Shown one piece after another: positions 53,419-56,557 of a stretch of 64,000 nt of DNA (the first letter of the stretch is position 1; each line of letters opens with the position of its first letter). The position numbers and the translations under genes are program-made. The DNA is from Candidatus Nanopelagicus hibericus (GTDB taxonomy: Bacteria > Actinomycetota > Actinomycetes > Nanopelagicales > Nanopelagicaceae), in assembly GCF_002288005.1 (NCBI RefSeq), contig NZ_CP016771.1, forward strand, positions 1,054,001 through 1,118,000. Reading direction: 5' to 3'. Under the pieces are notes generated by a model. That model ran no database searches, was not told where the DNA came from, and was given only the letters and a program-made list of their open reading frames with translations.

Positions 53419-54324
53419 CTACTTCAAAACAATAAATTCTTGTGAGGCGCTAACTCCCTCACAGATTAAGGTGGCATCGACTGGCACGTTCCGCTTAATA
53501 ACAGCTAGTGCAATTGGTCCTAACTCATAGTGGCGGGCAACTGTGGCTATAAAGCCCACCTCTTTATCCTCTAAAAATACCTTTGCGCCATTCTCTGGCA
53601 TAGCAACCATTGAGCCATCTAAGTGAAGCCTTACTAACTTTCTTGGCGGCTGTCCTAAGTTAAATGCCTTTGCCACAGTTTCTTGGCCTCTATAGCAACC
53701 TTTATTCATATGTACTGCCTTATTTATAAAACCTAACTCATTTGGAATTGATTTATGATCTGTTTCAAATAACAATCTAGCTCTACCTTGCGATACACGC
53801 TCTGCCTCCAGCGCCCACATTCCAACTTGGGTATGAGATTTACTAAATGCTTCCGTTGTTTCCTTTAACTCAACCCTTGGAACAAGTGCGTATGGGCCAC
53901 CTAGTAAATCTGATTTACCTGGTGCTCGTAACACTGCGTAATCATTTGATTGATCTTTGACATCAACCTCTAACATAAATTTCATCTTGTTTAAATAATC
54001 TAAAATCTCATTTGTTCGAGATTTTTCTGTGTGTAACCAGGTGGTATTGCCATCATCAACTAGCAACAATTGATCAATCACATGCCCCTGCACATCAAGT
54101 ATTAAAGCTTCAACCCACTTACCAGCCTCTAACTTTTCAAGGTGTTGAGTAGTTAATGAATGTAGCCAGGTAAGGCGATCCTTACCTGAAATTGAAATTA
54201 TTCCCCGGTGTGATAGATCTGCCCAAGCATTTCCTGCTTCTAATGCTTTTTGCTCCTGATTTGGCTCACCAAAGTGCCAAATAGCACCTTTATCTGGACC
54301 TGACTCAACTAATACAGCTGTCAT
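53419..54324 (-). CDS. ygfZ: YgfZ-type folate-binding Fe-S cluster repair protein
   Basis: 301 aa, GcvT-like fold. Signature 'NKGCYRGQETVAKAFNLGQP' (K-G-C-Y-x-G-Q-E) near residue 210. YgfZ proteins use folate to sustain some Fe-S enzymes, such as MiaB. The ATG overlaps the fur stop (TAATG), so ygfZ and fur share a message. Between its stop and the convergent epimerase gene (53312-53418) the 107 nt are A/T-rich, with no clear terminator. Confidence 0.9.
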   Translation of the reverse strand: MTAVLVESGPDKGAIWHFGEPNQEQKALEAGNAWADLSHRGIISISGKDRLTWLHSLTTQHLEKLEAGKWVEALILDVQGHVIDQLLLVDDGNTTWLHTEKSRTNEILDYLNKMKFMLEVDVKDQSNDYAVLRAPGKSDLLGGPYALVPRVELKETTEAFSKSHTQVGMWALEAERVSQGRARLLFETDHKSIPNELGFINKAVHMNKGCYRGQETVAKAFNLGQPPRKLVRLHLDGSMVAMPENGAKVFLEDKEVGFIATVARHYELGPIALAVIKRNVPVDATLICEGVSASQEFIVLK

Positions 54325-54743
54325 TACTTACCTGATTTATTTGCGCATTTACTACATAATCCATAAACAGCAAAGTGTGTTACATCTGTCTTAAATCCAT
54401 AATCATCCGCCAAGGTGTTAACAAAATTTGCAGCAGTTTCAATTGGGGCATCCCCAATCCCTTCACACTCTGAACACACAAGATGCAGGTGGGTTAACTC
54501 TTCCGCTGCATGATAGGTCGCACCACCATGACCTAAATGAGTGTGGAGTACTAAGCCAACATTTTCTAATGTTTCAAGGTTTCGATAAACAGTTGAAAGA
54601 TTAATCCCAGGATGGGTTGCACGAACTTTTTCGGCTACCTCCTCCGGTGTGGCATGGCCAAGCTGTCTAACTGCTTGCAGCACTAACTCACGTTGTGGAG
54701 TTAAGCGAAGCCCTTTTTCCCGCAGCTCATTTGGTTTAGCCAT
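54324..54743 (-). CDS. Fur-family metal/redox regulator
   Basis: 139 aa. N-terminal winged helix ('LRLTPQRELVLQAVRQLGHA', 'NLSTVYRNLETLENVGLV') and a C-terminal dimerisation domain with 'THLHLVCSECEG' and 'GLCSKCANK', the two CxxC pairs of the structural zinc site. It could be Fur (iron), Zur (zinc) or PerR; the metal cannot be fixed by eye. TAGACT ends 6 nt before the ATG (leaderless). It is in one operon with ygfZ. Confidence 0.92.
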   Translation of the reverse strand: MAKPNELREKGLRLTPQRELVLQAVRQLGHATPEEVAEKVRATHPGINLSTVYRNLETLENVGLVLHTHLGHGGATYHAAEELTHLHLVCSECEGIGDAPIETAANFVNTLADDYGFKTDVTHFAVYGLCSKCANKSGK

Positions 54744-54774: not shown

Positions 54775-55230
54775 CTAATTTCTTGAAGTTATGCGAGATT
54801 TAGCACGCAAAAGGATTAAGTAGAACTGGCAACCTAAGCAAAAACCAAAGGCCGCATTTAAAAAGGCTGCGCCTAGCGCAAAGCTAGTTGCAATTAGAAA
54901 GAGGGTTGTGTTGCCAGTTAAGCCTCCCAGTAATGCGGTTGCAGCAAAGAGTGCGCCAACTAATTGGGCAAATCTTGGGGCTGCCTCATTCTCACTTGGT
55001 ACTGGCCCTGAAAGCCGTGGCTGAATTAAATTGCGATAGATAAAACCATATAGGGATCTGCGAAGTCCAAATAAGACAGCTGATAAAAAGACTGCAAATT
55101 GAAATCCAATAATTAAGTTAGATTCTGTCACCAGTGCTGCTGATAAAACCACAGTTGTGATTGCTGCGGTATATCTTGGGCCTCTGGCATCGATTAATCG
55201 TTCAGGCTTTACTTGAGTTGTGTTTGCCAC
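54775..55230 (-). CDS. DUF4395 membrane protein
   Basis: 151 aa. Four membrane helices in two pairs (about 20-58 and 88-130). 'IDARGPRYTAAITTVVLS' at the start and the 'FCLGCQFYLI' Cys pair (C-x-x-C-type) near residue 133 are typical of DUF4395, found beside thioredoxin and sulfurtransferase genes in actinobacteria. Role unknown, probably sulfur or redox related. GTG start at 55230 with AAAGGAG 8 nt upstream. It is preceded by a Cys leader peptide and hairpin (55250-55372), suggesting translational attenuation. Confidence 0.88.
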   Translation of the reverse strand: MANTTQVKPERLIDARGPRYTAAITTVVLSAALVTESNLIIGFQFAVFLSAVLFGLRRSLYGFIYRNLIQPRLSGPVPSENEAAPRFAQLVGALFAATALLGGLTGNTTLFLIATSFALGAAFLNAAFGFCLGCQFYLILLRAKSRITSRN

Positions 55231-55249
55231 TTTTCTCTCTCCTTTGTTA

Positions 55250-55295
55250 GATAAATAGAATTAATTTTGTAAAGCTAAGAAATTAACTATTTATC
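55250..55295 (-). promoter_or_regulatory. Attenuator-type hairpin before DUF4395
   Basis: On the minus strand GATAAATAG (55295-55287) pairs with CTATTTATC (55258-55250), and TTAATTT (55286-55280) with AAATTAA (55267-55261), leaving a 12-nt loop and a 2-nt bulge. The 5' arm covers the last codons and stop of the leader ORF; the 3' arm ends 4 nt before the DUF4395 ribosome site. There is no U tract, so a translational switch is more likely than a terminator. This is inference. Confidence 0.6.
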
Positions 55296-55372
55296 CAACA
55301 CATGCAACCTTTAGCGCGGGCAAAATCGATTACGCGCCGCTTTGTGAAGTAAACAGGTTGTACGTAGAACAT
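55283..55372 (-). CDS. Cys-containing leader peptide (29 aa)
   Basis: Frame of 29 codons, ATG at 55372 and TAA at 55285-55283. The peptide has 'KRRVIDFARAKGCMCW', with two Cys codons (TGC, TGT) at residues 23 and 25 just before the hairpin. The R-R-x-[VI]-D-[LF]-x-R...C pattern resembles actinobacterial 'putative leader peptides' that precede sulfur genes. TAAAAT (55385-55380) ends 7 nt before the ATG, so it is itself leaderless. Probably a Cys-tRNA-responsive leader; the sequence supports the ORF, the mechanism is inferred. Confidence 0.65.
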   Translation of the reverse strand: MFYVQPVYFTKRRVIDFARAKGCMCWINS

Positions 55373-55379
55373 GATGTGA

Positions 55380-55385
55380 ATTTTA
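55380..55385 (-). promoter_or_regulatory. -10 box of the leader-peptide/DUF4395 transcript
   Basis: TAAAAT on the minus strand ends 7 nt before the leader ATG at 55372. No well-spaced -35 box is clear. Confidence 0.45.
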
Positions 55386-55430: not shown

Positions 55431-55832
55431 TTAGATAGCTTTGATTGCCTTGATAAGTTGATCACGTTTTGGCGCACCCTTTGCCCTGGCAATCTCAAAC
55501 CCCTTGCTGTCTAAAAATAGGGTGGTTGGAGTAGAGCGAATATCAACTCTTCTAACCAAATCAAGATTGGATTCAGCATCAACTTCAACATAGGTGATGT
55601 CCTTAGAATCCTTAACTACATCTTTAACAATTGCTTTTGCAGTTCGGCACTCAGAGCAGAAGGTGGTAGAAAATTGCAGAATGGTAAGACGGCTGCCATA
55701 TATTCCACCGAACTCACCCTCTGAAATTTTCAACTTTGATCCTTTTTTAATAACGCCCTTTTTTGCGCGCATAATTAGCCCAATTACTGAAGTTATGGAG
55801 ATCAGTAAAAGTAGTGGCAGCAAACTTTCCAT
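55431..55832 (-). CDS. Membrane-anchored thioredoxin-like protein
   Basis: 133 aa. An N-terminal helix (about 4-21) anchors it, then a thioredoxin fold with active site 'TFCSECRTAK' (C-S-E-C rather than CGPC) and 'STPTTLFLDSKGFE' (cis-Pro loop). Such proteins lie next to DUF4395 or sulfurtransferase genes in actinobacteria. It probably exchanges thiols or disulfides. The start is 20 nt from the divergent glnR start; an AAGAAT box ends 6 nt before its ATG on the minus strand, overlapping TATTCT of the plus strand. Confidence 0.85.
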   Translation of the reverse strand: MESLLPLLLLISITSVIGLIMRAKKGVIKKGSKLKISEGEFGGIYGSRLTILQFSTTFCSECRTAKAIVKDVVKDSKDITYVEVDAESNLDLVRRVDIRSTPTTLFLDSKGFEIARAKGAPKRDQLIKAIKAI

Positions 55833-55852: not shown

Positions 55853-56557
55853 ATGGCACGTCTACTTCTTCTGACAAACTCAAGCGGTGCTAGCGCTGAT
55901 GTGATGCCGGCACTTGCCTTGTTGCAGCATGATGTGAAGATCTTGCCAATTGAGGCCTCAGTATTAGTTGAACCTCCAGTAGTTGATTGCCTACTAATTG
56001 ATGCCCGTCGTGATCTGCCAGCAGCTAAATCATTTACCAAGTTAATTACCTCAACTGGAGTTGAGGTGCCAATCATGGTTATTACAACGGAGGGCGGCCT
56101 ATCTGCAATAAACGCGGATTGGGGCATTGATGATGTAATTCTTGATACCGCAGGTCCTGCCGAAGTTGATGCACGAATTCGGATTGTGATTGGCCAATCT
56201 GCAATTGCGCAATTAGCCAGTAATCCATCCTCTGGTGAGATACGAAGTGGTGAGGTAATAATTGATGAGTCCTCATACACCGCCAAGATAAAGGGACGTG
56301 TACTTGATCTGACCTTTAAAGAGTTTGAATTGCTTAAGTACTTAGCCCAACACCCAGGCAGAGTATTCACAAGATCTCAATTACTGCAAGAGATCTGGGG
56401 ATATGACTATTTTGGTGGAACTAGAACTGTTGATGTTCATATCAGACGTCTTCGTTCAAAGTTAGGTCCAGAGTTTGAGGCAATTATTGGCACGGTGCGT
56501 AATGTTGGCTACCGCTTTTCAGTACAGAATAATCAAACAACAGCTGATATTAATTAA
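55853..56557 (+). CDS. glnR: GlnR-type orphan response regulator
   Basis: 234 aa. Receiver-like domain with Asp in '[11 protein letters not shown]' but few of the other acidic pocket residues, followed by an OmpR winged helix ('[20 protein letters not shown]', '[20 protein letters not shown]'). Its place next to mshD matches mycobacterial GlnR, the nitrogen-assimilation regulator. No partner kinase is nearby. Start ATG at 55853. Unphosphorylated action is typical of the family. Confidence 0.88.

Follow-up and report, generated by a model that had tools for sequence, protein, structure and literature searches.

The window analysed here is a stretch of 64,000 nt (G000:C1:1054001-1118000) of the 1.22 Mb genome of Candidatus Nanopelagicus hibericus, whose named relatives are Candidatus Nanopelagicaceae. 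Its minus strand carries, in the interval separating a thioredoxin-like gene from a gene for a DUF4395 membrane protein, a short open reading frame (ORF) with Cys codons near its end, a -10 box immediately upstream and two RNA stems, which we term P1 and P2 (Table 1). Our analysis suggests that this element is probably a leaderless cysteine-responsive leader-peptide attenuator, the counterpart in the acI lineage (Nanopelagicales) of the poly-Cys leader Ms5788A of the mycobacterial cysA2 locus.

Table 1. Features of the leader region and neighbouring genes (window coordinates; SD, Shine-Dalgarno sequence)
Feature	Coordinates	Strand	Basis or remark
GlnR-like response regulator, divergent from the thioredoxin-leader-DUF4395 genes	55853-56557	+	Arrangement kept up to mycobacteria
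Thioredoxin-like gene, upstream syntenic neighbour	55431..55832	-	Pfam Thioredoxin, E 1.4e-11
-10 box TAAAAT, 7 nt 5' of the leader ATG	55380..55385	-	Sequence; TAnnnT conservation in relatives
Leader ORF, 29 codons + stop, MFYVQPVYFTKRRVIDFARAKGCMCWINS	55283..55372	-	Sequence; conserved 5' of DUF4395
Stem P1, 5' arm, includes CAACCT (55360-55355)	55355..55365	-	Pair probability up to 0.99
Codons 12-19, R-R-V-I-D-F-A-R, with invariant R12, R13, D16, R19	55316..55339	-	Alignment A2; synonymous codon variation
Stem P1, 3' arm, includes AGGTTG (55310-55305)	55300..55310	-	Pair probabilities; swap test
Cys23 codon TGC, not conserved	55304..55306	-	Trp in L002, Ser in most relatives
Cys25 codon TGT, putative sensing codon at the P1/P2 junction	55298..55300	-	Invariant Cys; pair probabilities
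Hairpin P2, 5' arm, from base 2 of the Cys25 codon across the leader stop codon	55280..55299	-	Fold; swap test; duplex z -5.4
Hairpin P2, 3' arm, ends directly at the SD	55246..55267	-	Fold; swap test
SD AAAGGAG of DUF4395, outside P2	55239..55245	-	Sequence; fold
DUF4395 membrane protein, first gene 3' of the leader, GTG start	54775..55230	-	Pfam PF14340, E 3.6e-38
Fur-family gene after DUF4395	54324..54743	-	Pfam FUR, E 2.3e-22; cysA2-sseC position in other lineages

The leader peptide and its promoter

A first-pass annotation of this DNA, made from the letters alone, had proposed the 29-codon minus-strand ORF (55372-55283) preceded by a leaderless-type TAAAAT box. Both stand: the start, stop and Cys positions agree with the sequence, and the box (55385-55380, 7 nt before the ATG) recurs as TAnnnT in relatives. 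Such a box is located 6–9 nt before the in-frame start codon in 103/104 distinct leaders (50 at 6 nt, 52 at 7 nt and one at 9 nt), compared with a background of 2.2% in shifted controls. Judging from this spacing, transcription would start at or adjoining the leader ATG, and the window leader bears, as a sequence signature, the leaderless start of the Ms5788A leaders.

The strict leader motif xxRRxxDxxR(x5)C was found ahead of DUF4395 in 122 of the 170 loci collected across Actinomycetes. In an alignment of 22 leaders (A2), which includes a second leader located before cysK (see below), R12, R13, D16, R19, C25 and the start codon are invariant and their spacing is fixed. Over 48 independent pairs of leaders, the in-frame proportions of synonymous (pS) and nonsynonymous (pN) differences are 0.296 and 0.057, respectively. 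The resulting pN/pS is 0.19, whereas the two remaining frames give 1.36 and 4.11; it is thus the peptide that is conserved, under purifying selection. The ORF is thus conserved far beyond the genus, as had been anticipated for an alignment of relatives, with Cys conservation limited to Cys25. Two Cys codons are indeed present, at residues 23 and 25, but the idea that they form a joint sensor does not hold, since only Cys25 is invariant and already the nearest relative (L002) has Trp at residue 23.

The codon used for Cys25 is also nearly constant: 101/104 distinct leaders have TGT here, among them 48/48 of the leaders whose G+C content (GC) exceeds 0.6. By contrast, DUF4395 itself mostly uses TGC for Cys in these loci, and TGT accounts for only 4/97 of its Cys codons at GC above 0.6 and 9/94 at GC below 0.5 (Fisher p 4e-34 and 3e-22, respectively, values that overstate the evidence because the sequences are related to each other). 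These features can be accommodated by nascent-chain-assisted arrest, according to which RRxxDxxR in the exit tunnel and the UGU Cys codon at a fixed distance would make the ribosome pause, a single Cys codon would suffice as a sensor of Cys-tRNA or of some other sulfur signal, and the stems would act downstream as in the attenuator. Such an arrest would add to the attenuator and not exclude it, and it is favoured by the invariant residues at fixed spacing (cysK leader included), by the low in-frame pN/pS and by the TGT of high-GC leaders. On the other hand, the CG-rich Arg codons may be kept for RNA structure too, and the cysK leaders have TGC as their last Cys codon, so UGU is not needed in every Cys leader; we put arrest forward tentatively. 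A cysteine-specific arrest peptide, in which the RRxxDxxR(x5)C chain, the near-obligatory UGU and one Cys codon where the two stacked stems join would together constitute the sensor, with the acI output stem beside the SD, is likewise conceivable rather than probable.

Stems P1 and P2

The first-pass annotation had placed one stem inside the ORF and a hairpin before DUF4395. The former exists at the coordinates proposed (CAACCT/AGGTTG, predicted pair probability 0.93–0.99). The latter exists as well, but it comprises 13 + 7 bp instead of 9+7 bp, its 5' arm begins inside the Cys25 codon and not in the next one, and its 3' end touches the SD instead of lying 4 nt away. When the complete leader is folded, P1 pairs nt 8–18 with nt 63–73 and P2 pairs nt 74–93 with nt 106–127; as P1 ends at nt 73 and P2 begins at nt 74, their junction falls inside the Cys25 codon (nt 73–75). 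The fold from the Cys25 codon onward has a predicted energy of -19.1 kcal/mol (z -3.75), and the arm-to-arm duplex of P2 reaches z -5.4 against dinucleotide shuffles in the window and a mean z of -2.6 over the low-GC leaders. An Rfam scan of the region gave no match.

MAFFT alignments of the P2 region were out of register, and pair counting was therefore replaced by a swap test of cognate against non-cognate arms. Among low-GC leaders (n=43), the 24-nt segment beginning at the Cys25 codon has a pairing energy of -12.9 kcal/mol with the downstream region of its own locus, compared with -8.0 kcal/mol when this region comes from other species, and 0/5000 permutations reach the cognate value. The corresponding energies for P1 are -11.1 vs -7.9 kcal/mol in low-GC leaders and -12.9 vs -10.9 in high-GC leaders (0/5000 in both cases). 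The test ignores shared ancestry: close relatives used as non-cognates render it conservative, whereas the composition of a lineage could inflate the result, a possibility addressed for P2 alone, because the dinucleotide shuffles served as a second control for this stem only. These energies indicate that both stems covary, as the earlier annotation had expected. The leader, the -10 box, P1 and P2 are found again in relatives whose sequences differ, and are therefore not due to chance. Covariation of P1 and P2 would also suit an incidental ORF, kept solely through RNA structure, but the in-frame pN/pS, set against values above 1 in the other frames, and the matches to known leader-peptide models (see below) make this explanation hardly credible.

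Gene neighbourhood and known cysteine leaders

The gene order glnR-like(-), trx, leader, DUF4395 is common to the window and mycobacteria, and the thioredoxin gene lies upstream in 94 of the 107 full loci that bear the leader. High-GC leaders located directly 5' of DUF4395 pass the curated cut-off (45 bits) of the NCBIfam model NF042933 leader_Ms5788A with 47.3, 48.9 and 55.2 bits. In named Mycobacterium and Mycolicibacterium loci, a poly-Cys leader is found 86–141 nt before the start of the DUF4395 match, and in those examined cysA2 and sseC come next after DUF4395 (order: thioredoxin, leader, DUF4395, cysA2, sseC). Hence, the suggestion in the first-pass annotation that DUF4395 is an undescribed target has to be withdrawn, since in mycobacteria, too, this gene comes first behind the poly-Cys leader, and leaders that pass the Ms5788A model precede it. 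The likeness to leader peptides before actinobacterial sulfur genes, noted at the same time, was well founded, and the window leader is related to the mycobacterial Cys leaders.

With the Ms5788A leader it shares the core LTKRR.VD/ID..R.....C, the leaderless start and the syntenic position, flanked by a thioredoxin-like gene and DUF4395 and with a divergent glnR-like regulator nearby. Unlike Ms5788A, it has no string of Cys codons close to its stop but only Cys23 and Cys25, one of them invariant; its locus lacks cysA2-sseC behind DUF4395; and its stem adjoins the SD rather than covering it. From these comparisons the window locus appears to be the acI counterpart of the known mycobacterial leader and not new in kind. 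A leader before cysA2/Msmeg_5788 was reported by Shell et al. 2015, who proposed attenuation for the mycobacterial short ORF (PMC4633059), and a 2026 article (PMC13236596) cites Canestrari et al. 2020 for translation attenuation of cysteine genes in M. smegmatis. The general model NF042934 (cis_reg_atten putative leader) has the same RR..D..R motif and is matched by relatives such as L012, L014 and L024 (E 1e-4 to 3e-5), but not by the window leader, and the low-GC relatives tested stay below its 27-bit cut-off. A weak match to this general model elsewhere in the same genome (L091, E 0.075) was rejected, as it shows no Cys leader. The candidate actinobacterial Cys leaders predicted in 2005 (PMC1262725) are also short ORFs with Cys codons near the stop, located before cys operons or cbs, but they were predicted without conserved hairpins, whereas the window leader has two covarying stems. 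Classical trp-type attenuators share the regulatory codon, a stem within the ORF and a downstream stem; the window leader differs from them in that it has no terminator, its output looks translational and the peptide itself is conserved.

A second leader with the same motif (MGKSARNLTQTKHWFFTRRRVVDFGRIASTSC) lies directly 5' of cysK in the same genome (G000:C1:286587-286652, plus strand; about 1457-1555 in locus L093), and the pairing of leader and cysK is kept in relatives of the genus and family. This is the strongest hint within the genome that the motif senses cysteine. After the stop of the cysK leader, L093 and several relatives have a GGGC/GCCC hairpin, followed in L093 by a T-run (TTGGGCTTTGCCCAACTTTTT); hairpin and T-run are possibly a transcription attenuator. 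A search of the genome for the PAPS reductase family did not find it, hence reduced sulfur is probably limiting; acI strains have been reported to be without assimilatory sulfate reduction (PMC5301498).

Neither cysA2 nor sseC is present at the window locus. DUF1416/sseC was not found in the genome (positive control: G054), nor was cysA2 at either of the two rhodanese loci checked there; intermediate loci with cysA2-sseC exist in the window's own family. DUF4395 is present in 98/150 related genomes. Two contigs labelled as Bifidobacterium breve metagenome-assembled genomes (L094, L117) bear acI-type DUF4395 loci, and their label is probably wrong. The AlphaFold model of DUF4395 is helical (pLDDT 94.8) and its last helix begins with a conserved CLGC motif; PDB sequence and fold searches with this protein returned nothing significant. 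Its gene neighbours suggest a role in thiol or sulfur handling.

Output at the ribosome site and proposed mechanism

The conserved leader with its fixed Cys25 spacing, the TAnnnT signature, the covarying stems, the Ms5788A matches of high-GC members, the mycobacterial loci, the shared gene order, the cysK leader and the failure to find PAPS reductase are the grounds on which we favour a cysteine-responsive attenuator. Its most likely form is translational, with P2 hindering the docking of the 30S subunit by its closeness. A tall hairpin close to an SD is able to hinder 30S docking (standby sites). If Cys-tRNA(Cys) is plentiful, ribosomes would complete the leader and depart, P1 and P2 would close into one stacked rod with the Cys25 codon at the junction, and the closed P2, ending directly at the SD of DUF4395, would hinder 30S docking. 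If Cys-tRNA is scarce, the ribosome would wait with Cys25 in the A site, occupying the junction; neither P1 nor the outer part of P2 would then form, and translation of DUF4395 would proceed. What we infer from the features described is that the signal is cysteine, that the response has this direction and that it works through steric hindrance.

Several observations weigh against this interpretation. The window leader matches NF042933 with 19 bits (E 8e-4), short of the curated cut-off, and in two loci of the same genus (L007, L008) DUF4395 follows the thioredoxin gene with no leader between them, the leader having been lost or replaced. In the window, P2 adjoins the SD without pairing with it, and the predicted cost of opening the SD is 0.87 kcal/mol in the free state vs 2.56 kcal/mol in the stalled one, i.e. 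no gain of accessibility is predicted. The gap between P2 and the SD, 0 nt in the window, has a median of 8 nt over the low-GC acI group and extends up to 38 nt, so direct hindrance of the SD by P2 cannot be general. The proposal in the first-pass annotation that a ribosome stalled at the Cys codons frees the ribosome site is thus not supported for the window, where the SD is left unpaired by the abutting P2 and folding predicts no gain when the Cys codons are covered.

The relatives differ in this respect. In high-GC leaders (n=48), the segment from Cys25 onward pairs with the SD itself at -10.6 (92% below -5), and in many high-GC relatives the cost of opening the SD falls sharply on stalling; in low-GC leaders (n=43), the same pairing is weak (-4.0). 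As the end of the high-GC leader pairs with the SD and the low-GC segment pairs with the region before it, the low-GC acI bacteria have kept the leader, but their output stem has moved off the SD to a position immediately upstream. The predicted rise of the opening cost on stalling, found in the window and in several relatives, would agree with an inverted logic, in which P2 keeps the SD open and stalling at Cys25 frees the 3' arm, so that the SD is covered and DUF4395 lowered. The differences are, however, small and inconsistent over the genus (L006 shows the opposite), and the high-GC relatives follow the normal logic, at large energies; we consider the inversion very improbable.

That P2 does not cover the SD could also indicate that the leader region acts on transcription or mRNA stability, with P2 as a terminator, pause element or RNase shield, or with Rho acting in the leader; Rho-dependent attenuation has been suggested for the mycobacterial cys leaders (PMC1262725). 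An intrinsic terminator was rejected, because P2 is followed by AAAGGAG and the sequence after it (AAAGGAGAGAG) has no U-run. Moreover, the SD is paired directly in the high-GC relatives, and the ~50 nt from the leader stop to the gene start leave, as a matter of general knowledge, little space for Rho loading. We regard an action on transcription or stability as unlikely, and retain translational attenuation as the preferred explanation.

The 2005 survey of actinobacterial Cys leaders, which we take to be that of Seliverstov et al., did not find the structural elements supplied here. New are the shift of the stem position in low-GC acI bacteria, the location of Cys25 at the stem junction, the preference for UGU and the purifying selection on the peptide, and they raise the testable questions of why the peptide and the UGU codon are conserved. 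The window locus has lost cysA2-sseC yet retains the leader and DUF4395, a family of no known function, whose link to the supply of cysteine or sulfur is thereby strengthened. If the proposed attenuator is correct, cysteine attenuation would extend from mycobacteria to abundant freshwater bacteria with reduced genomes.
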